A DNA stretch of 35,895 bases from Candidatus Coprenecus pullistercoris. GTDB lineage: Bacteria; Bacteroidota; Bacteroidia; Bacteroidales; UBA932. Shown here in pieces: positions 21,761-30,483 of this stretch. Below the pieces are notes generated by a model. It ran no database searches. It saw only the letters and a list, made by a program, of their open reading frames with translations, and was not told where the DNA came from. The stretch is from positions 1 to 35,895 of the forward strand of contig DXAT01000059.1 in assembly GCA_019116965.1 (NCBI GenBank), given 5' to 3'. Position numbers and translations under genes: made by a program. How positions within the stretch are numbered: position 1 is the first letter of the stretch; every line of letters begins with the position of its first letter.

Positions 21761-21799
21761 CACTCCCATTATCGGAAATAACGATAGATAGAAGTGTCT

Positions 21800-21883
21800 G
21801 CCCGGATGGTGAAATTGGTAGACACGCTAGTTTCAGGGACTAGTGGCCGAAAGGCTGTGCAGGTTCGAGTCCTGTTCCGGGCA
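21800..21883 (+). tRNA. tRNA-Leu (anticodon CAG)
   Basis: The cloverleaf can be folded by eye. Acceptor GCCCGGA (21800-21806) pairs with TCCGGGC (21876-21882), with discriminator A at 21883. The D arm is GTG...CAC; the anticodon stem is CTAGT/ACTAG around loop TTCAGGG, giving anticodon CAG. A long variable arm GGCC-GAAA-GGCT, typical of class II tRNAs, is followed by T arm GCAGG-TTCGAGT-CCTGT. CCA is not encoded. A mobile element is inserted at its 3' end and supplies the sequence after the discriminator base. Confidence 0.95.
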
Positions 21884-23417
21884 CCCAGTCGGAATCTTCC
21901 GTTTTTTCGGAAGATTCTTTTTTTATATCCCCGCGTAACCTGTTGGTCTCTTGATAGATGATGTCGAGCATCCTGTTGTACGAGCAGGTTCGATAATTTT
22001 TTCCGTCAAATTCGATTTTTTCGGGAAATATCGAACCTAACAGCAGGACTTTGACTTCCGGCTTTGCTGACCTGAAGAAATCCCCGAGGTTGCCGATAAT
22101 ATTGATGGAATAATCCAGTTTGTCTTTAACTTTCAAATCCCTGCTCAGTCTCAATGCCTCTATTCTTTCTTTGAGGTTGCCAATCTGTTTGTTTAATCTC
22201 TCCAAAGATTGGTCTTTTTCTGCTTTGGATATTTGGCCGTCATAGAACAAGTCCCTGACCCTATCCGCTCTGTTTTGGATGTTCTGCATCTCTGCACTGA
22301 GTTTGTCGGCATTTGCCCTGTTCTCTCTAATTTTCTCTCCTCTGATATCATGCAGTATCTCGTTATAAAGTTCCAATACCGCTCTGTTCGGTTTTAACCC
22401 CGATGTATAATGGGCAAAGCCGTCATTGACCTTTTCTGCCCGGACATTGAGGTGCTTGTGGTCGTGATTGCAGAAATAATATGTGTACTTTCCCCCGTGC
22501 CCTGTCGTTGTCGCACCAGTCAGAGGATGGCCGCAGACAGGGCATACTAAGAATTTTCTCAGATACAGCTCTGGATTGATATTCCTCTTTGCAAGTTTTG
22601 GTGTCCGGCGGCGTTTGCCCTCCAGAACATCCTGAACTTTGTAGAATGTATCCCGGCTGATGAGGGCTTCGTGCTTGCCTTCTACAAATTGTTCCGGGTC
22701 GCCCTTGTATGCCGGAACGCGTATGATTCCCATATAGAACTTATTCCTGAGCATATCAAAGAAAGATGACTTAGGAACGAAAGGACACCACTTCTTCCTG
22801 ATTAGAGCAGGATTCTCCAGTCCCTTTGCGACCTCCTCAAACGCCTTTTTGATGGCAGGAGCCTTGGCCTTGTCTATCTCTATCCAGCATTCGTGCTTCC
22901 CGACCCTCACATTTCTGTATCCCCGAGGGGCTTTGCCGACCCACTCGCCTCTCATCAGGTGTTCATGGTTGCCGTCCTTTGTCCTTGCTGCGATTTTATT
23001 GTCTTCCGTGTGCGCATTACCGCACTGCATGGCGAACAGCAGTGACCAGTCCGGCATGGTGAAATCTATGGGAGATTCTATGGCATTGATTTCAACTCCC
23101 AGCTCATCATAGAACTTACGCTTGTATGTAAATGCGAATTCTGTGTTACGGGCAAACCTGTCCCAGCGGAGGAACAGGAGTTTCTGTACCTTGCCCTTAT
23201 GTCTCCGGCAGTATTCATACACTCTTTTCATCTCTGGCCGTCTAAGGTCATGGTGCTTGGCGGAGTAATCCTCCTTATACGGCTGTTCATCGCCCACTAT
23301 GTTGTAATTATGGTTGGCGCAGTGTGCCCTCAGCAATCTTTCCTGAGCCTCCAGTCCCAGCCCATACTCAGCCTGCTCGTCCGTGCTGACCCTCGTGTAT
23401 AGAATAACATTTGTCAT
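21840..23417 (-). CDS. Large serine recombinase (integrase), 3' end inside tRNA-Leu
   Basis: A 525-residue site-specific recombinase, presumably the integrase/excisionase of the element. The resolvase-type catalytic domain starts YTRVSTDEQ with nucleophile Ser11 and has LRWDRFARN (83-91). A 'recombinase' DNA-binding domain follows (about 155-270; KAPRGYRNV, FDMLRNKFYMGIIR). A zinc ribbon has Cys292, Cys295 and Cys316 (CPVCGHPL, YYFCNHDH), then a coiled-coil-rich region (about 360-430). The last 14 codons (VPGTGLEPAQPFGH) and the TAG stop at 21840-21842 are read from the antisense strand of the tRNA; the stop lies in its anticodon stem. In an excised circle the C-terminus would differ (see findings). 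Its start overlaps the stop of a 59-residue gene as ATGA. Confidence 0.93.
   Translation of the reverse strand: MTNVILYTRVSTDEQAEYGLGLEAQERLLRAHCANHNYNIVGDEQPYKEDYSAKHHDLRRPEMKRVYEYCRRHKGKVQKLLFLRWDRFARNTEFAFTYKRKFYDELGVEINAIESPIDFTMPDWSLLFAMQCGNAHTEDNKIAARTKDGNHEHLMRGEWVGKAPRGYRNVRVGKHECWIEIDKAKAPAIKKAFEEVAKGLENPALIRKKWCPFVPKSSFFDMLRNKFYMGIIRVPAYKGDPEQFVEGKHEALISRDTFYKVQDVLEGKRRRTPKLAKRNINPELYLRKFLVCPVCGHPLTGATTTGHGGKYTYYFCNHDHKHLNVRAEKVNDGFAHYTSGLKPNRAVLELYNEILHDIRGEKIRENRANADKLSAEMQNIQNRADRVRDLFYDGQISKAEKDQSLERLNKQIGNLKERIEALRLSRDLKVKDKLDYSINIIGNLGDFFRSAKPEVKVLLLGSIFPEKIEFDGKNYRTCSYNRMLDIIYQETNRLRGDIKKESSEKTEDSDWVPGTGLEPAQPFGH
21868..21884 (+). repeat. Left attachment repeat (attL) inside tRNA-Leu
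   Basis: AGTCCTGTTCCGGGCAC, the T-arm and acceptor 3' end of the tRNA. It recurs at 30467-30483 as AGTCCGCTTCCGGGCAC (15 of 17 identical, last 10 perfect). The two copies bound the element carrying the serine recombinase. Confidence 0.75.
21892..21924 (+). terminator. Element-borne Rho-independent terminator behind tRNA-Leu
   Basis: A perfect 10-bp stem, GAATCTTCCG (21892-21901) and CGGAAGATTC (21908-21917), with loop TTTTTT and a run of seven T. It serves the plus strand directly after the tRNA. On the other strand the same bases encode the Lys/Glu/Ser-rich end of the recombinase. Confidence 0.85.
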
Positions 23418-23593
23418 TTCAAATCGATTGGTTCATGGTTAGTAATCGGGTTAATATCGGCCTCATCACTTTCATTCATCACCTGTATCGAGGCCAACTG
23501 ATACAGATAATCCCTCAACTCTTTCAGTGTACCGTTGTCTGTCTTGCAATCATAGTTTTTCAGTATGGCGGCACACCGCTCCAGCGACAGCAT
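23414..23593 (-). CDS. Small protein (59 residues) coupled to the recombinase
   Basis: A short gene reading MLSLERCAAILKNYDC at the start and ending NHEPIDLK. It is not recognised. Its TGA overlaps the recombinase ATG (ATGA), a strong sign of a real, translationally coupled cistron. The protein is mostly helical in appearance (LERCAAILKNY, LKELRDYLYQLASIQVM) with an acidic tail. Position suggests a recombination directionality factor or other recombinase accessory, but that is inference from location only. Start chosen at the first ATG after an in-frame stop (TAA five codons upstream). Confidence 0.7.
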   Translation of the reverse strand: MLSLERCAAILKNYDCKTDNGTLKELRDYLYQLASIQVMNESDEADINPITNHEPIDLK

Positions 23594-23806
23594 TTCATGG
23601 TAGTCTTATCGCATTATTCGCCATTTCAGCTGCCTTTGCCGATGTTCGTGGCAAAGGAACTTGTACGCCCAGGACGGCTTGGCCCTGTCGGTATGTTACC
23701 TTGTTTTACAGATGTCTTGACGCTGACTGTTTTCTTGATGTCCTGTGCGGACTTATTATAGCCGGGAGTTCCGGCAAGGTGCTGTGCTGTTTCCTCACCT
23801 TCTGCG
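23594..23806 (-). other. Leader of the recombinase transcript
   Basis: About 210 bp between the predicted promoter (23807-23838) and the 59-residue gene. It holds a reading frame open from 23826 to the TGA at 23626 (66 codons, for example KKTVSVKTSVKQGNIPTG) without any ATG, GTG or TTG. It also holds a nine-codon ORF, MANNAIRLP, at 23624-23595, whose stop lies one base before the ATG of the 59-residue gene. The first may be a gene remnant, and the second could allow reinitiation. Confidence 0.4.
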
Positions 23807-23838
23807 CAAATATATGCAGTTGAGATTTAAAAACCAAA
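23807..23838 (-). promoter_or_regulatory. Promoter for the recombinase transcript
   Basis: On the minus strand TTTG (plus 23835-23838), exactly 20 bp, then TATATTTG (plus 23807-23814). This is a full match to the Bacteroidota TTTG-N19-21-TAnnTTTG consensus. Transcription would start near 23800, between the small resolvase gene and the 59-residue gene. Confidence 0.75.
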
Positions 23839-23874
23839 TTCAATGCGCACTTATAATCCGCTTTGCGCTCAGAT

Positions 23875-24510
23875 TTACTTGAGGATTTGACATAGTTTTC
23901 TGAGAGTATTTATGGATGTCCCGGTGATGGCTCTGACATTTCTGAGACTGATTCCCTTATGTAACAGTGCGATTTCTTTGGCGTACTGCTCGCGATATTT
24001 GCTCTCGGATTTCCTGTATGTAGAGGGCCTGCCCATTTTGATGCCTTCAGCCCGGCACTTGGCGATATACTGATTGCGACCCGACGCCATCCGCTCTTTG
24101 ATGGTCAGGCGTTCCATCTGCGCTATCTCCAACAAGATGGTCGTAATCAGGGATGCCACGGGATTCACATTGCCGTCCGGGGTCAGGGTCTCTAAATTAT
24201 AGTTCTTGACAAAGAGGCTGACCTTATGCTCGTTGAGGGCCTGAATGATTCTCAACGCCTCCAGTGTATTTCTGCCGAGCCTACTGATTTCAAGGCAGAC
24301 GACTCTCCGTATATCGTTGGACTTCACGAATTCTATCAGTTCCACTATTTCCGGCCTCTCCTTATTTCGCTTGGCCCCGGACACCTTGTTGGCGAACTCC
24401 CTGACCACCTCCCAGCCCACCTTTGAACAATACTCCCGAAGTTCAGTCAACTGCCGCTGATACTCCTGCTTATCCGTTGACACCCTTGCCAGGATTACCA
24501 CCTTGTCCAT
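23875..24510 (-). CDS. Small serine recombinase (resolvase/invertase family)
   Basis: 211 residues from the ATG at 24510: MDKVVILARVSTDKQEY with nucleophile Ser11, FANKVSGAKRNKERPE, CLEISRLGRNTLEAL, and a long E helix region TTILLEIAQMERLTIKERM. The C-terminal HTH (HKGISLRNVRAITGTSINTLRKL, shortened here as GISLRNVRAITGTSINTL) is that of resolvases and invertases. A TTG at 24525 keeps the frame open, but a strong GGAGG (24519-24523) sits 8 bp before the ATG and decides the start; such a site is unusual in this phylum. It may resolve element dimers or act with the large recombinase. It follows the WYL_2-like gene closely. Confidence 0.92.
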   Translation of the reverse strand: MDKVVILARVSTDKQEYQRQLTELREYCSKVGWEVVREFANKVSGAKRNKERPEIVELIEFVKSNDIRRVVCLEISRLGRNTLEALRIIQALNEHKVSLFVKNYNLETLTPDGNVNPVASLITTILLEIAQMERLTIKERMASGRNQYIAKCRAEGIKMGRPSTYRKSESKYREQYAKEIALLHKGISLRNVRAITGTSINTLRKLCQILK

Positions 24511-24518
24511 TTCCTCTG

Positions 24519-24523
24519 CCTCC
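24519..24523 (-). promoter_or_regulatory. Strong Shine-Dalgarno site of the small resolvase
   Basis: GGAGG on the minus strand, 8 bp upstream of the ATG at 24510. It selects that ATG over the in-frame TTG at 24525. Confidence 0.65.
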
Positions 24524-24525
24524 AA

Positions 24526-24858
24526 TCAATAGACCGTGACCATGTTCTCCCAACGGAAACTACGCCAGTTTCCCTTCTCCACATCAAAATAGGCGGTAGT
24601 GGCATAACGCTCCCGGCTGTCACCGTTGCCGTTGATGTGCTTTTTGGCAAGGCTGCTGTTGGTGGTGCCCCACGCCTCTCTGAGAGAGCCGTCCTTTTTC
24701 ATAAAGACGAAATGCGCTATTCCGTTCTTCATCTGTCGCTTCAACGACTCCACCATCATGGCCTTTGCCCCGGCCATAAACTCGCTGTCGGTTCTCTTCG
24801 CGATGACTGCCATCCTTGTGATGGTTTGATTGTCGGTCGTGATAATCATCGTTTCCAT
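24526..24858 (-). CDS. WYL_2/DUF2693-like SH3-barrel small protein
   Basis: A 110-residue protein, METMIITTDNQTITRMAV at the start, with the core FVFMKKDGSLREAWGTTN and the end YFDVEKGNWRSFRWENMV. This core resembles the small DUF2693 (WYL_2) proteins common on Bacteroidota mobile elements, predicted SH3-like beta-barrels of unknown function. The family call rests on recollection of the K-DGS-REAWGT pattern. It lies between the 90-residue gene and the resolvase in a minus-strand operon read from the promoter at 25185-25216. Confidence 0.65.
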   Translation of the reverse strand: METMIITTDNQTITRMAVIAKRTDSEFMAGAKAMMVESLKRQMKNGIAHFVFMKKDGSLREAWGTTNSSLAKKHINGNGDSRERYATTAYFDVEKGNWRSFRWENMVTVY

Positions 24859-24888
24859 ATCATTGTTTGTTAAAATTCATCCGTTGAA

Positions 24889-25161
24889 TTAAGCTGCAAG
24901 GACAGCCATATATTCATTGCGTTGTTCAGATACATTGATATTGCGTCCGCTGATGATGCCGCTTGCCTCCTCGTATCTTAATGTCCACAGACCGCGCAGT
25001 GCCTTTCTAACATCCTCATCCTCAATGGTGTTTACAAGTGCCACGAATCTCCTCATGCCTGCCTTCGCACTGTCGTATCTCCACTCATCGGCCATGCTCC
25101 AATACCAATCATAGTTTTCTATCATCTCCAGTGCGGTCTGTATTTTGTTGTCCTGTGCCAT
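24889..25161 (-). CDS. Small protein of unknown function (90 residues)
   Basis: From the ATG at 25161: MAQDNKIQTALEMIENYDWY, followed by AKAGMRRFVALVNTIEDEDV and ending QRNEYMAVLAA. Not recognised as a defined family; similar short helical proteins are frequent in Bacteroidota mobile elements. The longer frame to 25215 was rejected because it crosses the predicted promoter. It is the first gene of the minus-strand operon (90-residue protein, WYL_2-like, resolvase). Confidence 0.7.
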   Translation of the reverse strand: MAQDNKIQTALEMIENYDWYWSMADEWRYDSAKAGMRRFVALVNTIEDEDVRKALRGLWTLRYEEASGIISGRNINVSEQRNEYMAVLAA

Positions 25162-25184
25162 ATCTTCTCTCTTTATTTGTATTG

Positions 25185-25216
25185 CAAATATAATATTTAA
25201 AGATTGCTTATGCAAA
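25185..25216 (-). promoter_or_regulatory. Promoter of the leftward element operon
   Basis: On the minus strand TTTG (plus 25213-25216), 20 bp, TATATTTG (plus 25185-25192). This is a full consensus match with the same spacing as the recombinase promoter. A short palindrome TTGC-TTAT-GCAA (25204-25215) overlaps the -33 box and could be an operator. Confidence 0.75.
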
Positions 25217-25257
25217 TTTTTGTAATATTATTTTATCGTATTTTGAAGATTTTAGAA

Positions 25258-25265
25258 TATATTTG
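25258..25265 (+). promoter_or_regulatory. Probable -7 box for the XRE regulator
   Basis: TATATTTG on the plus strand, 24 bp before the regulator ATG at 25290. It is divergent from the promoter at 25185-25216. No well-placed -33 box. Confidence 0.55.
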
Positions 25266-25289
25266 CATTACTAATTAATTTGGTCACTT

Positions 25290-25604
25290 ATGAACATACC
25301 TGAGAAGACCTATTTTGAGACTCACGCTGAGGATATGCTGAGGAACGCGGGCATGAACAAGGCCCAATTCGCTGAACAAATGGGCATTGCCCGGCAGAAT
25401 GTTCTGAAACTGTTCGAGACAAAGAATGTGCTGACACTCATTAAGGCAGCCGACATCCTGAAAGTACCGCTGTCCGTCCTTATATATGGGAATGACTCCG
25501 GGGACGGACATGCCATAGACGGATTCGTTGAGGTGGACGGAAAGGTGCATAGGATTCGCAGCAGAGAAGACATTGAAAGCCTCCTCGGACTGCTTTCAGA
25601 CTGA
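25290..25604 (+). CDS. XRE-family helix-turn-helix regulator
   Basis: A 104-residue protein. Residues 12-65 form an HTH_XRE domain (AQFAEQMGIARQNVLKLFE, then LTLIKAADILKVPLSVLI). A short C-terminal part includes GFVEVDGKVHRIRSREDI. It is transcribed away from the leftward operon, the layout of element and phage repressors, so control of the divergent promoters at 25185-25265 is likely. Start at the first ATG, 24 bp after the -7 box. Confidence 0.88.
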   Translation: MNIPEKTYFETHAEDMLRNAGMNKAQFAEQMGIARQNVLKLFETKNVLTLIKAADILKVPLSVLIYGNDSGDGHAIDGFVEVDGKVHRIRSREDIESLLGLLSD

Positions 25605-25892
25605 CAATCCCACTATCCAAAATTGGTAATTTTTCTACCAAAAACTGATGGCCTTAATCCCCGTATCCTGATTATTGTTCATGACCGGATACTTCGGCAT
25701 CATCCGGCTGACTGGAAAAGGACGACTGTCCACCATTCTGTTATTACATCTGCCGAAAGCAATAAATCCTAATTTTGCAGGTCAATACCTCTCAATGAGT
25801 GCTCTCCGTTAACTGGAAATAACTATCTTTGCAGTGCCGGACAGTCCGGCATTACATACGGAAGTGTTTTCGTTACGTCCTAAGTAGAAAAT
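25605..25892 (+). other. Non-coding stretch between the regulator and the cargo
   Basis: No convincing gene. It holds weak hairpins at 25623-25641 (TTGGTA/TACCAA) and 25685-25707 (CCGGAT/ATCCGG), then the -7 box and perfect palindrome at 25824-25850 listed separately. Confidence 0.5.
25824..25850 (+). promoter_or_regulatory. Probable cargo promoter with a palindrome at the start site
   Basis: TATCTTTG (25824-25831) fits the -7 consensus. It is followed at once by the perfect palindrome GCCGGACAGTCCGGC (25836-25850), which would cover the transcription start. It is an operator candidate, possibly for the XRE regulator, or the 5' hairpin of the message. Confidence 0.5.
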
Positions 25893-26126
25893 GTGGAAGT
25901 TTTCAAAAGCAAAAGGACAACGGACGGCACTCATTCTTGTGTAGGCTATGCGGTCAGGGAGTTCTATACCCGACAGTACCTCATATCTATACGAGTGTGG
26001 GGTATTGGGTCTGTTTATTTTTGCTTAGGTTCTTCCACAACCTTCTACTTGATAAACGGAATCGGCCTCACACTTTCTTTTTATACAAACTCTTCCCCGG
26101 GGCCCGGAAGGCTTAAACTTCATTGA
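25893..26126 (+). CDS. Uncertain small ORF upstream of the lipoprotein
   Basis: A 77-codon frame with a GTG start (MEVFKSKRTTDGTHSC) whose TGA directly abuts the lipoprotein ATG. It has hydrophobic stretches (WGIGSVYFCLGSSTTFYLI) but no family resemblance, and an ATG-started competing ORF covers the same stretch in another frame (25829-26116). It may equally be a 5' untranslated leader of about 290 bp. Confidence 0.2.
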   Translation: MEVFKSKRTTDGTHSCVGYAVREFYTRQYLISIRVWGIGSVYFCLGSSTTFYLINGIGLTLSFYTNSSPGPGRLKLH

Positions 26127-26663
26127 ATGAAAAAGTTTATCTATTACGCAGCGGTGCTCCTGCTTTGTATGGGCACAACTGTCTCCTGCGGGCATGGAGG
26201 CTCAGCAGGAGTCAGGTATGACAGGAACTATATTGTCGGAGAATGGTCTTTTGAGCGCAATGTCTTTTATTTTGACGGTAGGGAAATAGCCATGCAGGCA
26301 AACAGCATATGCTGGTACACGACAGACGGCAACTGGTATTCGGACTATATTTCAGGATGGCCACCGTTCCCGGTACGCTTTGACGATGATGGATATGCCT
26401 ATGCTGATGCCGCAGCAAGATGGACATTTGAGAACGGGAAAGTTATTGTACGCACCATGGATGGCGAATTGGCGGCAAGTTGGTACCTGTCCGAAGACGG
26501 ATATCTGTGTGAAGACAGTGTATATGAAATCTTGGGCTACTTCTTCCCTGACGACAGCGACTATGACGTGCATTACCCGGAAGACATCAGCACCCTTATA
26601 GGCTATGATGGGAATTCTCATGAATTCAAGGAGACAATGAGAATCAGAAAGACAGGAAACTAA
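26127..26663 (+). CDS. Cargo lipoprotein of unknown function
   Basis: A 178-residue protein with a lipoprotein signal MKKFIYYAAVLLLCMGTTVSC (lipobox Cys21). The mature part is rich in Trp, Tyr and Asp (IVGEWSFERNVFYFDGREI, WTFENGKVIVRTMDGELA), a beta-rich style similar to small lipocalin-like lipoproteins that start with 'GEW' in Bacteroidota. No family is claimed. It stands 23 bp upstream of two outer-membrane barrel genes on the same strand; export to the outer membrane beside them is likely. Confidence 0.8.
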   Translation: MKKFIYYAAVLLLCMGTTVSCGHGGSAGVRYDRNYIVGEWSFERNVFYFDGREIAMQANSICWYTTDGNWYSDYISGWPPFPVRFDDDGYAYADAAARWTFENGKVIVRTMDGELAASWYLSEDGYLCEDSVYEILGYFFPDDSDYDVHYPEDISTLIGYDGNSHEFKETMRIRKTGN

Positions 26664-26686
26664 CATCAATCATTAAATACTACACT

Positions 26687-27577
26687 ATGAAACGATTGCT
26701 TTTATCGCTGGCACTGGTGCTGGCGGCATCACTGAGCGCACTGGCTCAGGACATCATCATCCTCAAGAATTCCGAGAAGATTGAGGCGAAGATTGTAGAG
26801 ATTTCCTCAACGGAAATCGCCTACAAGAAGGCCGACTACACGGACGGCCCCACTTTCCGCCTTGACATCTCGGAGGTATCCTCCATCATCTACGCCAACG
26901 GGGAAGTGCAGGCGTTCAACGCTGAGCCGAAAGGACAGGGCACGGTCAGTTCCGGTAATGAAGACGGGGCTGGCAAGCTGAAGTTCAATCCGGCCCCGCA
27001 GGGCAGGAAAAGGCCCTTCGGTATATCCATCGGATACACCAGCAAACAGATGGCTCTAGGCCCGCTGAAGGTTTCCATGCTCAGTGAAGAGATTGGAAAG
27101 ACCAGCCCCGCCCTTATGGTAGGTTTCTACTGGGCACCCGAGTTCAAGTACGGTATCGGCATACAGACAGGACTATACTACGAGCTGGCCGCTTACAACG
27201 GAACCTATACAGATTACGGAGATTACTACAACGAGGTTGAGAAAAATTACAGTAACACGGAACATACACTGTCCATTCCACTGAGAGTCCAGTACCGATA
27301 TGAGATTATCCGTGACCTGAGCGTGTTCCTGTACACTGGCCCCAGCTTTGACATTCATCTGGCCTACCTGTCCAATTACGGAGGGGAGAGGGATGACTAC
27401 TACAAGGGAGACTCTTCCCTCAACCGCTTTCAGATGCTGTGGGGCGTGGGCGCAGGAGTCAGGTGGAAAGGCCTCCAGCTCATGATGGGCGGTGACTGGG
27501 GACTGACCAACTACTATAAAGGGGATGCAGTCAAAGTCAACAAGCCTTTCTTCATATCGCTCTCATATTTGTTCTGA
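26687..27577 (+). CDS. Outer-membrane beta-barrel protein, first of a tandem pair
   Basis: 296 residues with a cleavable signal (LALVLAASLSALAQ, cut after Ala20-21). After the signal comes a small domain DIIILKNSEKIEAKIVEISS through SSIIYANGEVQAF, a pattern seen before Bacteroidota barrels. From about 110 follow alternating beta strands typical of an 8-stranded barrel: GISIGYTSKQM, MVGFYWAPEFKYGIGIQTGL, IPLRVQYRYEI, SVFLYTGPSFDI, LWGVGAGVRWKGLQLMMGGD, ending in FFISLSYLF with terminal Phe. The downstream gene is a paralog with the same architecture. The role as cargo is unknown. Confidence 0.85.
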   Translation: MKRLLLSLALVLAASLSALAQDIIILKNSEKIEAKIVEISSTEIAYKKADYTDGPTFRLDISEVSSIIYANGEVQAFNAEPKGQGTVSSGNEDGAGKLKFNPAPQGRKRPFGISIGYTSKQMALGPLKVSMLSEEIGKTSPALMVGFYWAPEFKYGIGIQTGLYYELAAYNGTYTDYGDYYNEVEKNYSNTEHTLSIPLRVQYRYEIIRDLSVFLYTGPSFDIHLAYLSNYGGERDDYYKGDSSLNRFQMLWGVGAGVRWKGLQLMMGGDWGLTNYYKGDAVKVNKPFFISLSYLF

Positions 27578-27601
27578 CAACCACAATAACAAGATATACC
27601 G

Positions 27602-28474
27602 ATGAGAAAATTGATTTTATCACTCGCACTTGTCCTGACCGCATCGCTGTCCGTGGCAGCGCAGGACATCATCATCCTCAGGAACTCGGAGAGGATTGAC
27701 GCAAGAATAGTTGAAGTCACCTCCACGGAGATTGCATACACGCTGGCAGACGACGGCAGCGGGCAGGTCTTCCGGCTCAGCGTCGCGGAGATAGCATCCA
27801 TAATGTACGGCAACGGGGATGTGCAGACCTTTGAGGACATTCCCGTCACGGAGACATATAATGCCGACAGCGACAGGTGGAAAGAAAGGCTTACCCCCAA
27901 ATACAAGCAGCGCATAGTGGGTCTGTCCATCGGCTACTCCGCCAAGAGACTGGTGTCTCCCAGCTATAAGGGGCCGTGGATTGGCGATGACGAAGACGGG
28001 GCCATAAAGACCAACCCCTCCCTCAAAGCCGGACTCTACTGGGCACCCGAGTTCAAGTACGGCATAGGACTGCAGGGAGGAGTGTACTATGAATGGTCTA
28101 CATATGTATCCCCCTCCGACGCGCTGTACTCCGTTGAGATTTCAGAGCATACGGTGTCTTTCCCCCTGAGGGTGCAGTACCGCTACGAGATACTGAAAGA
28201 CCTCAGTGTCTTCGCGTACACGGGCCCGAGCTTTGATGTGTCCGTGGAATACAAGACAACCGTATCTGCCGGAGACATGAAAGAGACCCTATACGAGTAC
28301 GGGGAGGACTCAGACCTCAGACGGTTCAATCTCCTGTGGGGCGTCGGCATCGGTGTCAGATACAACTGCGTCCAGCTCATGATGGGCGGTGACTGGGGAC
28401 TGATTAATATCTCAAAGTCCACCCCGGCCAAACTCAACAAGCCCTTCTTCGTCACCCTGTCCTATGTCTTCTGA
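27602..28474 (+). CDS. Outer-membrane beta-barrel protein, second of a tandem pair
   Basis: 290 residues and clearly paralogous to the gene 24 bp upstream. Shared features are the signal ending SVAAQ, DIIILRNSERIDARIVEVTS, YWAPEFKYGIGLQGGVYYE, PLRVQYRYEILKDLSVFAYT, LWGVGIGVRYNCVQLMMGGD and the end FFVTLSYVF. The loops differ strongly, as expected for exposed regions. A strong terminator follows at 28511-28547, closing the lipoprotein-barrel-barrel transcript. Confidence 0.85.
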   Translation: MRKLILSLALVLTASLSVAAQDIIILRNSERIDARIVEVTSTEIAYTLADDGSGQVFRLSVAEIASIMYGNGDVQTFEDIPVTETYNADSDRWKERLTPKYKQRIVGLSIGYSAKRLVSPSYKGPWIGDDEDGAIKTNPSLKAGLYWAPEFKYGIGLQGGVYYEWSTYVSPSDALYSVEISEHTVSFPLRVQYRYEILKDLSVFAYTGPSFDVSVEYKTTVSAGDMKETLYEYGEDSDLRRFNLLWGVGIGVRYNCVQLMMGGDWGLINISKSTPAKLNKPFFVTLSYVF

Positions 28475-28510
28475 CATCCGGCAGGACATGGCTCTTTAAG
28501 ATAAAAAGTT

Positions 28511-28547
28511 AAGGTGATACATTCCGGCATGGGTGTATCACCTTTTT
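28511..28547 (+). terminator. Rho-independent terminator of the cargo operon
   Basis: An 11-bp perfect stem, AAGGTGATACA (28511-28521) and TGTATCACCTT (28534-28544), followed by T run to 28547. A second weak hairpin TCATCC/GGATGA (28599-28615) with five T follows downstream. Confidence 0.85.
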
Positions 28548-28621
28548 CCATATCTTAAATTGATACAGTTTGAGTTTTGACACATTCCGTAAAATAATTC
28601 ATCCTCAGTGGATGATTTTTC

Positions 28622-28651
28622 TTGCTTTTCAAGAATTATTCTATACCTTTG
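28622..28651 (+). promoter_or_regulatory. Promoter of a short structured transcript
   Basis: TTG (28622-28624), 19 bp, TACCTTTG (28644-28651): a good Bacteroidota promoter. Start predicted near 28658. No long plus-strand gene follows, only a hairpin terminator. Confidence 0.65.
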
Positions 28652-28657
28652 CGCTGT

Positions 28658-28723
28658 CATGATAGAAATGACTTTAGCAAACTAATGCAGGCATCTATCC
28701 CTAAATGGATGTCTGCTTTTTTT
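28658..28723 (+). ncRNA. Candidate small RNA or attenuator leader
   Basis: About 66 nt from the predicted start (near 28658) to an intrinsic terminator. It contains an eight-codon ORF, MIEMTLAN, from 28659. The terminator stem GCAGGCATC (28687-28695) pairs with GATGTCTGC (28708-28716) with one G-T wobble, and seven T follow. Either a free small RNA or the leader of a longer transcript whose continuation pairs with its 5' end. Confidence 0.45.
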
Positions 28724-28800
28724 GAACTGCTACCGAGGGGAGGTTGTTATTACGAGAAGCCAATTGTTCTACAGCTAAAGTTAATTTAATTTCTATCATG
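28658..28800. repeat. Interrupted inverted repeat enclosing the terminator
   Basis: CATGATAGAAAT (28658-28669) pairs exactly with ATTTCTATCATG (28789-28800), and ACTTTAGC (28671-28678) with GCTAAAGT (28774-28781). The result is a 20-bp stem with a small bulge. The right arm covers the ATG of a 38-codon plus-strand ORF (28798-28914). Confidence 0.7.
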
Positions 28801-28999
28801 TTAAAGAGAACACATTGTACGTTCGTGATAATCTCCATAAGAGCGGAGATTGTCAGACTTGCTAAAATCAAAGTGCTCGCACTTTTCCGATTCTGCAAGA
28901 TTGGAAAAATTTGAAATTCGTATAGGTAGGTAAGATATCCTGCCGATATTGGATTTCAATCTGAGCCGGAAAGGCACTCTGCCCTATCCCCTCGGTTTT
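28724..28999. other. Structured stretch without an assignable gene
   Basis: Small ORFs exist on both strands: plus 28798-28914 (MLKRTHCTFVIISIRAEI) and minus 28701-28799, starting MIEIKLTLAVEQLASRNNN. Neither can be assigned. Hairpins are AATCTCC/GGAGATT (near 28829-28850) and AAAGTG-CTCG-CACTTT (near 28870-28885). This could be an origin of transfer, a regulatory leader or a degraded gene. Confidence 0.4.
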
Positions 29000-29929
29000 T
29001 CACCTCAACATTGCAAGTATCTCTGAAAAATAAGTATCCTCACCTTCCGTCATCAACTGGCTGTATGCTTCGCGGTACGGTCTCATTACATCGGATATCT
29101 TTGTCCCGCGCTTGTACAGACTTCTGACCTTCGCTTCGACCTTTTCTAAATCGAAATCGCAGTCCTTCAAAACGAGATAACGCTGATATGACTTCCAATC
29201 GGAACACGCTTTCTGCCCTTGACTGCCGCAGACCGCCTCATCCATGAATTCCAATATGGGATTCGTCTCTGAATTAAGCACTGTCAATAGATTGGTGTCT
29301 TCGATATGCAGGGCATTCCGTATCTGTTCTTTCGAGTTGAGGTTTATCTCAAACCTGCATTTCCCTACAAACTCATCAGTCAGTCCGTTTTTCCGCATGT
29401 ATCTGATATTGTCCGACTTTTTCATCTCCTGCTCTTTATCATATATAGTCATACGCTTCTTGTTTTTCCTGGTTGTCACATTCTTCTCCAGCACTGTGTT
29501 CCCGTTCTTCAATGCACGGCACACATACTTGCTGTAGTTGGATATGTGGCTCCTGATATATGACTGCACCTTTCTGACATCGGAGCACTGCACATCCTTG
29601 GCAACATCACACGACACCACTTCCGAGCGCATGAGCAAATCCATATCAAACCGACAGAAGCCCAGTGATTCTATATTTCTGAAACACTCTTCTATGTTCG
29701 CCATAGATATCAGATGCGGGTAATTGTGACCGAGTATCTTACCAGTGAACTCCACAACCACTTCTCCACTGGCATAGTCTACCTTTATCATCAGTTTGGT
29801 TGGCATCTCTCGATAATACTTCATCGATACTACATTGCCGCTTACAAGTGTTTTCGCAAACACACTCTCATCTACCACATCTATGGCATCTATGGCTGTT
29901 ACGATTTTGAGCCTGTCGAATGTCTGCAC
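29000..29929 (-). CDS. Replication-initiator-like protein (Rep_trans / phage gene II type)
   Basis: A 309-residue protein, GTG start, beginning MQTFDRLKIVTAIDAIDVVD. The motif order recalls rolling-circle initiators of the Rep_trans or filamentous phage gene II/X kind: CRFDMDLLMRSEV (about 92-104), KKRMTIYDKEQEMKK (about 157-171, the Y-D-K motif) and GKCRFEINLNSKEQI. The catalytic tyrosine is not settled. Such proteins start replication of small elements, and the related MobT group nicks oriT in mobilisable elements. It follows the NUMOD3-like small gene by 29 bp on the minus strand. Codon use is AT-rich compared with the flanking chromosome. Confidence 0.6.
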   Translation of the reverse strand: MQTFDRLKIVTAIDAIDVVDESVFAKTLVSGNVVSMKYYREMPTKLMIKVDYASGEVVVEFTGKILGHNYPHLISMANIEECFRNIESLGFCRFDMDLLMRSEVVSCDVAKDVQCSDVRKVQSYIRSHISNYSKYVCRALKNGNTVLEKNVTTRKNKKRMTIYDKEQEMKKSDNIRYMRKNGLTDEFVGKCRFEINLNSKEQIRNALHIEDTNLLTVLNSETNPILEFMDEAVCGSQGQKACSDWKSYQRYLVLKDCDFDLEKVEAKVRSLYKRGTKISDVMRPYREAYSQLMTEGEDTYFSEILAMLR

Positions 29930-29958
29930 CTATTTCATATAACTTATTCTGCATTATT

Positions 29959-30159
29959 TTACCTGTTTTCTTCCCCTTGATAAGTGGTGACATCTCCGCT
30001 GGAAGGACGGTGAGGAACTTTTGCCCAATAGTCTTTCATCGCTTGACTGATGTGCTGCCTATGCATCTCTGATTTCGGTCGGTTGCGGTTGGCCGCTGAT
30101 ATCTTCTCCTTTGTCTCATCGCTCAACTCGCGATACTGTCTCTTATATGGCTGTTGCAT
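29959..30159 (-). CDS. Small NUMOD3-like DNA-binding protein
   Basis: 66 residues from the ATG at 30159 (MQQPYKRQYRELSDETKEK). The segment LSDETKEKISAANRNRP followed by HRQHISQAMKDYW has the paired helix pattern of NUMOD3 motifs, DNA-binding modules first known from homing endonucleases; no nuclease domain is present. Small proteins of this kind sit in front of replication-type genes of Bacteroidota elements. The longer frame (to 30231) starts with TTG and adds a hydrophobic stretch that I judged unlikely. Confidence 0.6.
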   Translation of the reverse strand: MQQPYKRQYRELSDETKEKISAANRNRPKSEMHRQHISQAMKDYWAKVPHRPSSGDVTTYQGEENR

Positions 30160-30369
30160 AATTCTAATATCAGGCTCTTTGTTGCCTGTCCTTTCAACAA
30201 TAATATATAGTAGCATTACCAAGAAAGTCAAGCATAGTAGCCGATTTTCCAGCCTGAAATCGCAGATAAAATCATCGCAAGCAACAGTCTCATGTCTATT
30301 ATACCGCCTGTTTTTTTAATGTAATTAAGGCGGATAACAGATAGCAGAAAAAATATGCTATCATCCCCC
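30160..30369. other. Right-end region with hairpins
   Basis: No gene is supported. There are inverted repeats CCGCCT (30304-30309) with AGGCGG (30328-30333), and GATAGCA (30340-30346) with TGCTATC (30356-30362), extended by GGAT/ATCC outside. The second lies just beyond the displaced recombinase 3' end and could be a terminator or binding site active in the circular form. Confidence 0.45.
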
Positions 30370-30483
30370 TCAGATATTCTCCGAGTAATCCGGCCTATTG
30401 GGGTCAGGAATGTAATACCTCAACGCCCAAATCCTGTCCAAATCAGCTAAGAATTCTTTCGAGAATAGTCCGCTTCCGGGCAC
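30370..30483 (-). pseudogene. Displaced alternative 3' end of the recombinase gene
   Basis: On the minus strand from the right attachment repeat, 37 codons and a TGA (30370-30372) stay in the frame that the recombinase has at the left repeat: VPGSGLFSKEFLADLDRIW at the start and PDPNRPDYSENI at the end. If the element circularises by recombination between the repeats, this segment replaces VPGTGLEPAQPFGH. In the integrated state it has no own start except the GTG of the repeat. Not a gene by itself; labelled pseudogene for lack of a better class. Confidence 0.6.
30467..30483 (+). repeat. Right attachment repeat (attR)
   Basis: AGTCCGCTTCCGGGCAC, 15 of 17 identical to the tRNA copy at 21868-21884, with the last 10 bases perfect. 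A bidirectional terminator that looks like the original tRNA terminator follows directly. Confidence 0.75.

Follow-up and report, generated by a model that had tools for sequence, protein, structure and literature searches.

What becomes of a recombinase gene when the attachment site of its own mobile element lies inside it? The question is raised by a 35,895-nucleotide contig of Candidatus Coprenecus pullistercoris (DXAT01000059.1, hereafter the window), in which a mobile element of ~8.6 kb is inserted in a tRNA-Leu(CAG) gene and encodes a large serine recombinase (LSR) that reads out of the element into the tRNA. An earlier note on this DNA had proposed that the recombinase ends differently in the integrated element and in the excised circle, and that integration thereby acts as a switch of its tail. 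By comparing related elements, we show that the gene spans the attachment site attP of the predicted circle, where it would be joined to a conserved tail from which integration separates it.

Two C-termini for one recombinase gene

In the integrated element, the open reading frame of the LSR runs from 23417 down to a stop at 21840–21842, inside the tRNA-Leu(CAG) gene, and encodes the C-terminus VPGTGLEPAQPFGH (525 residues). When the right end of the element is joined at the repeat, as it would be in a circle, the same frame encodes 548 residues, with the C-terminus VPGSGLFSKEFLADLDRIWALRYYIPDPNRPDYSENI and a TGA stop at 30370–30372, the tail amounting to 37 codons counted from the crossover. 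The 17-bp core repeats that flank the element (21868–21884 and 30467–30483) carry two mismatches, which turn ACA into AGC and only exchange Thr for Ser, and they keep the reading frame. The read-through into the antisense strand of the tRNA described in the earlier note was thus confirmed to the base, and the joined frame and the effect of the two repeat mismatches were as it had described them.

The LSR has three domains above the cut-off (PF00239, PF07508 and PF13408), and residues R9, V10 and S11 of its catalytic domain are invariant across 20 sequences. The AlphaFold model of the 525-residue form (mean pLDDT 76.5, pTM 0.38) contains two long helices, 361–392 and 398–423, that qualify as a coiled coil; confidence is mostly moderate at residues 430–480, and pLDDT falls below 50 at 484–525 as well as at 53–56. 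Its best fold matches in the PDB are LSR complexes, with TM-scores by query of only ~0.2–0.44 for this multi-domain model. From the low confidence at the C-terminal end of the model, we expect that the tail of the circular form would sit on a flexible linker behind the intact domains.

A conserved tail at the far end of related elements

A scan of genome contigs yielded 51 loci related to that of the window. A pattern derived from the window and two of these loci (L042 and L048) retrieved comparable segments from the far ends of further elements. In the set formed by the 51 loci and the window, a profile of 11 tails then detected nine more (E 3.5e-16 to 8.5e-6, the next match standing at E 1.2). 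At least one tail is present in 18 of the 51 loci, three further tails were obtained from whole genomes, and the consensus reads VPxxxLFSNQFLEDLDKIWELRxxIPDP. Tails matching that of the window thus lie at the far end of related elements, and in L042 a C-terminal remnant of the recombinase is contiguous and in frame with a tail. This locus, in which another tail lies upstream and a tRNA-Leu follows 3 kb further on, is read as a decayed tandem.

The reading frame was compared in 19 two-ended elements, each selected because a recombinase end and, at the far end, a match to the tail profile were both available; tail presence is therefore given by construction, and the frame is what is tested. Recombinase and tail join in frame in all 19 elements, and in none of them when a shift of +1 or +2 is imposed as a control (0/19). 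The crossover was placed on the recombinase side from the common core (GTACCC or GTGCCC in most elements, GT or GG in all) and on the tail side at the start of the profile. Excluded from the set were L044, where repeated arms blur the crossover, and L042 and L048, which hold recombinase remnants (in L048 with the motif in another register). Since L002 is near-identical to the window and L007/L008 as well as L016/L017 form close pairs, the number of independent joins is somewhat lower than 19. Three more loci (L088, L092 and L095) have shorter linker-to-tail joins, again in frame.

The codons of the tail are constrained as protein sequence. Over codons 11–28 of 21 tails, the proportions of synonymous (pS) and nonsynonymous (pN) differences are 0.835 and 0.238 (pN/pS 0.285, uncorrected and with synonymous sites near saturation), pN being lower than pS in 209 of 210 pairs; this signal appears in this frame only and is missing from the other two. 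Variability in the same codons is 0.583 at third positions versus 0.188 at second positions. Codons 8 and 9 (TCG-AAC) are nearly fixed at the DNA level, third positions included. Distances between tails and between recombinases are correlated across 17 elements (Mantel r 0.56, 0 of 10000 permutations).

The earlier note had cautioned that a single 37-codon frame can arise by chance. We agree, and it is the comparison across elements that decides the matter: the in-frame joins (19/19 versus 0/19 shifted) together with the codon constraint rule out a chance open frame. We conclude that a detached conserved tail is a real arrangement in relatives of about 41% identity and above, and that the tail nearly certainly belongs to the circular form.

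Attachment sites and a probable terminator on the opposite strand

When attL and attR of the 19 elements are aligned, only the dinucleotide GT, opposite tRNA positions 73–74 by our own count, is common to all, a tRNA-His pair having GG instead; this pair was re-registered by 2 bp, which leaves the spacing described here unaffected. On the attB side, TCGAA starts 16 bp from the crossover in 13 of the 19 elements and TTGAA in three more, the others (L011, L022 and L074) being without an intact tRNA. On the attP side, TCGAA starts at 21 bp in 16 of the 19, with one-base variants in L018, L019 and L020. All 16 elements with both motifs show this 16 versus 21 bp offset on the right arm when one-base variants are counted, as do all 11 with exact TCGAA; the left arms have no such motif. 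The 16-bp spacing in attB results from the structure of the tRNA, from which the 5-bp shift does not follow. This shift equals that published for the zinc-domain motif of serine integrases, which in attB lies closer to the centre than it does in attP (PMC3783163). The sequence pattern thus suggests that the enzyme probably recognises the universal tRNA T-loop sequence TCGAA via its zinc domain, and such recognition would explain its many tRNA targets.

The codons that directly precede the crossover are overlain on the other strand by a hairpin with a run of Ts behind it, in 19 of 19 elements. None of 200 mononucleotide shuffles was as stable in 18 elements, and one of 200 in the remaining one; in L007 the stem pairs with part of the T-run. 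The hairpin is adjoined by an annotated tRNA in 15 of the 19, L019 being cut by a contig end and L011, L022 and L074 having none. A simple terminator scan detected the hairpin of the window, but the sites that it found in the stretch were at shuffle level (2 versus 2.0), so that the evidence lies in the recurrence across 19 elements rather than in the scan. The inserted element probably supplies a new terminator to the tRNA, in which case one short stretch of DNA would serve as protein code, attachment site and terminator.

An empty site was found in a relative (G406, locus L117), where tRNA-Leu(CAG) is directly followed by a terminator-like hairpin and by a copy of a transporter gene 82% identical to the one located right of the element in the window. 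The transporter occurs near tRNA-Leu(CAG) in 8 of 20 loci, loci that extend only ~1.5 kb past the neighbouring peptidase gene.

Read-through into tRNA genes across the family

Open reading frame ends were inspected in 45 of the 51 loci. Beside the recombinase end, 27 of the 45 have a tRNA, each time on the opposite strand; the recombinase reads into it in one shared frame (G-[VLIF]-E-P or like, judged by eye) in 25 of the 27; the exceptions are L024, where the frame is lost, and L049, where it is a different one. An order-level set of 19 loci, found in 16 of the 393 genomes of the order with the window included, has a tRNA at 16 of 19 loci, and all 16 read through in the same frame, again by eye. 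The targets in the family are tRNAs for Leu, Arg, His, Ala, Asn, Val and Ser, and a transfer-messenger RNA (tmRNA) in all three flavobacterial loci checked for it, another flavobacterial locus (L028) lying in tRNA-Ala. The antisense-tRNA C-termini vary in sequence and length with the target, reaching from 11 to 84 codons past the crossover in the 19 two-ended elements, and for this reason a functional peptide encoded there was set aside as an explanation.

A distant LSR in a human-gut phage record (L108, MT836653.1, 7574–8947) ends in GDPNEIRTRIATVKGWCPNH, which resembles antisense tRNA in another frame; to judge from this sequence, read-through into antisense tRNA may be common among LSRs. 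Two further observations concern the targets. L016 and L017 have near-identical tails and different tRNAs (Leu CAA and Arg CCT), and their core variants look crossed, suggesting target switching. In L011, L022 and L074, attL retains no more of a tRNA-Leu than ~13 bp of its 3' end, and these elements were perhaps inserted at a leftover tRNA fragment.

The tail profile matches 16 of the 393 genomes of the order, and a tail is found on the same contig in all four order genomes with a recombinase identity of 41% or higher. Across the phylum, E 0.001 is reached in 4 of 395 genomes, that of the window included. Six tail regions, from order genomes without a recombinase match or representing second tails, were searched with tblastn, and in two of them (L109 and L112) a remnant of the recombinase lies beside tRNA-Leu(CAA). 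Candidate tails that seem shortened or diverged, with a motif like TCGAAC in the same place, occur in more distant relatives (L076:1465, L082:9144 and L031:1268), e.g. VAPKVRLSNQLMERFRRIYELK.

Proposed role of the tail and alternative explanations

We consider it likely that attP is placed within the 3' part of the element's own LSR gene in such a way that integration swaps the tail, the full-length form being the integration-competent one, and thereby shuts off re-integration. In the circle, the gene would encode 548 residues, in which the catalytic, recombinase, zinc-ribbon and coiled-coil domains are followed by a charged linker and the conserved tail, and this full-length enzyme would carry out integration; its zinc domain would read the T-loop TCGAA, which stands 5 bp closer to the crossover in attB than it does in attP. 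Strand exchange in the 3' end of the tRNA would leave the last 37 codons 8.6 kb off, at the opposite end of the element, and the integrated gene would gain a new 3' end from the antisense strand of the tRNA (525 residues), with catalytic and DNA-binding domains intact. Loss of the tail would lower or redirect activity, so that re-integration is off; excision would fall to the enzyme that lacks the tail, assisted perhaps by the small serine recombinase, which is itself conserved, or by some other factor. From the tail switch put forward in the earlier note, the change of the encoded C-terminus and the tail as a real protein segment encoded by the circle are retained; its regulatory effect, as opposed to a by-product of the location of attP, does not have the same standing and is kept as a proposal.

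Several results weigh against a tail exchange of this kind. The tail profile has no match in 33 of the 51 loci, many of which are cut by contig ends or by the 10-kb flank limit; L012, whose recombinase is 53% identical and for which 10 kb upstream are covered, has none. In the tailed relatives, the right end is conserved in frame, the point on which the earlier note had made its proposal depend, but among relatives of 27–35% identity a tail was found in only 1 of 12 order genomes, as a weak match on another contig; the tail as profiled is not common to all of the read-through family. In the other direction, no recombinase match at 1e-30 exists in 11 of the 16 tail-positive order genomes, and tblastn found no recombinase remnant in four of the six tail regions mentioned above (L110, L111, L113 and L114). 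Such matches may be decayed elements, contig ends or, where weak, chance. The tail itself has no match in PDB sequences up to E 1 and no convincing Pfam family (of 20 members, a single one gave one match, at E 0.1). No mirrored TCGAA motif is present in the left arm of attP, aligned over the 19 elements, and three elements (L011, L022 and L074) adjoin no intact tRNA. Finally, the predicted circle junction was found in none of 19 genus genomes with up to two mismatches allowed and, as an exact pattern, in no viral contig. Searches for the recombinase outside chromosomes gave no close relative in plasmids (24 records, all below 60% identity, the best-covering match at 25.8%) or phages (98 records, all below 60%); in viral contigs, one search gave none and another a single 32% relative amid tRNA-like repeats, with no tRNA by ARAGORN.

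The simplest rival holds that the location of attP is a by-product: the site lies in the gene only because recombinase and site are inherited together, the tail has its use in the circular form, and the tail-less form excises equally well, with no switch. Linker and tail do lie after the recognised domains and the integrated C-termini are arbitrary in length, so the enzyme must tolerate changes at this end. The strong protein-level constraint on the tail across many tRNA targets nevertheless argues that at least one state depends on a tail which the other lacks, and we regard a by-product without regulatory effect as rather doubtful. As a rule, excision by LSRs needs a directionality factor, for which no candidate emerged here. 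That the tail is instead a built-in directionality switch, the tailed enzyme only integrating and the tail-less one only excising or being locked, so that the recombinase would set its direction through the rearrangement of its gene and with no separate factor, seems to us unlikely. A tail resembling a recombination directionality factor (RDF) was also thought unlikely, because its presence in the circle should then hinder integration; integrase-RDF fusions are described in PMC5737554.

Two other explanations deny that the segment is the tail of the recombinase. It might be conserved as DNA only, as an arm of attP with an incidental open frame, and the TCGAA motif in its first ten codons is indeed kept at the DNA level, third positions included, where the zinc-domain site of attP is expected. 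Codons 11–28, however, lie beyond a 25-bp half-site, vary mostly at third positions and show the low pN/pS in this frame only, which makes this account very improbable. Even less credit is due to a separate small gene with no relation to the recombinase, despite the ~8.6 kb between the two when integrated and the genomes with a tail match and no recombinase match: the segment has no conserved start codon (its first codon is GTA in 13 of 21 tails), begins at the crossover, joins the recombinase in frame in every two-ended element and is contiguous with a recombinase C-terminus in L042.

Comparison with known recombination systems

The nearest precedent comes from the ssrA-specific genomic islands of Dehalococcoides (McMurdie 2011, PMC3146451). 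There, DsiB is a CcrB-like LSR of ~540 residues; the 3' end of its gene overlaps attL in every case, the stop codon lying beyond the island, and a smaller serine recombinase, DsiA, is encoded next to it. It was proposed that dsiB may reach full function only when on the circle, or when it lies downstream of another, neighbouring island that supplies the missing 3' fragment. In the same way, the LSR genes of the window and of its relatives overlap attL and stop outside the element, and a small serine recombinase is present in the element of the window and in the other 18 two-ended elements. The target in the window is tRNA-Leu(CAG) rather than ssrA, although some flavobacterial relatives do use tmRNA, and the tail conserved here has no counterpart in the accessible portion of the DsiB account (PMC3146451). 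The LSR of the window and DsiB both resemble CcrB, the former far below the CcrB cut-off, and they are likened to each other by description only.

In archaeal suicidal tyrosine integrases of the SSV type, attP lies inside the integrase gene and integration splits it, and a 2021 review calls self-disrupting recombinases archaeal only (PMC8371274). Joining the ends of the window element in sequence likewise places attP inside the recombinase gene, but the enzyme belongs to the serine and not the tyrosine family, and whereas SSV integration separates the catalytic part, only the C-terminal tail is lost here and the domains stay intact. In the integration-dependent immunity of mycobacteriophage BPs, attP is said to lie inside the repressor gene, so that integration alters the encoded protein; the gene affected here is the recombinase instead. 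The likeness to att sites in regulatory genes drawn by the earlier note is fair, but DsiB and the archaeal integrases are closer. To our knowledge, the large serine integrases A118/LI, Bxb1 and phiC31 exchange no tail on integration. The LSR of the window shares with them domain order, fold and the 5-bp shift of the zinc-domain motif (PMC3783163).

Full-text literature searches, whose coverage leaves out most subscription journals, turned up no description of a recombinase that trades a conserved tail when its element integrates, and the accessible parts of PMC6764341 and PMC12884075 have no bearing on one. What is new is the conserved tail and its detail, since the underlying idea, overlap with attL and a full enzyme only on the circle, is already published for dsiB. 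The tail supports that 2011 suggestion in another phylum and with a conserved sequence, and adds a bacterial serine recombinase to the self-disrupting recombinases. How serine integrases are given their direction has long been asked, and the two versions of one enzyme that appear to be made here, differing only in the tail and set by the state of the DNA, make the question directly testable. Integrase proteins taken straight from integrated islands would carry the wrong C-terminus for recombinases of this family.

Other features of the element

The coordinates of the element and its features are collected in Table 1. A homolog of the small serine recombinase lies within all 18 other two-ended elements, in L018 near the opposite end.

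Table 1. Features of the integrated element and its target in the window.
Feature	Position	Strand	Remarks
tRNA-Leu (CAG), integration target	21799..21887	+	Intact in integrated state; empty site seen in relative L117
LSR, integrated form, 525 aa	21840..23417	-	Last 14 codons past crossover are antisense strand of tRNA-Leu
TCGAA motif, antisense of tRNA T-loop	21864..21868	-	16 bp from crossover; putative attB zinc-domain site
attL core repeat	21868..21884	.	Putative crossover dinucleotide GT/AC at 21883-21884, from sequence common to attL and attR across elements
Terminator-like hairpin and T-run for tRNA-Leu	21891..21918	+	Overprints recombinase linker codons on opposite strand
Small serine recombinase, 216 aa	23875..24525	-	PF00239; homolog in other 18 two-ended elements
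Rep_trans-like replication/relaxase candidate	29000..29929	-	Below Pfam cut-off (20.6 bits vs 29.6); homologs in some relatives
Small NUMOD3-type protein adjoining tail	29959..30231	-	Recurs near tail in several relatives
Detached 3' end of recombinase gene, 37-codon tail	30373..30483	-	Joined to gene only in circle; stop 30370-30372
TCGAA motif inside tail codons (TTC TCG AAA)	30458..30462	-	21 bp from crossover; putative attP zinc-domain site
attR core repeat	30467..30483	.	Putative crossover at 30482-30483

As cargo, the element carries at 26687–28474 a tandem pair of related putative outer-membrane proteins, the first of them belonging to PF13568. The two are ~47–49% alike by their cross-matches in L002, where near-identical copies of both are present.

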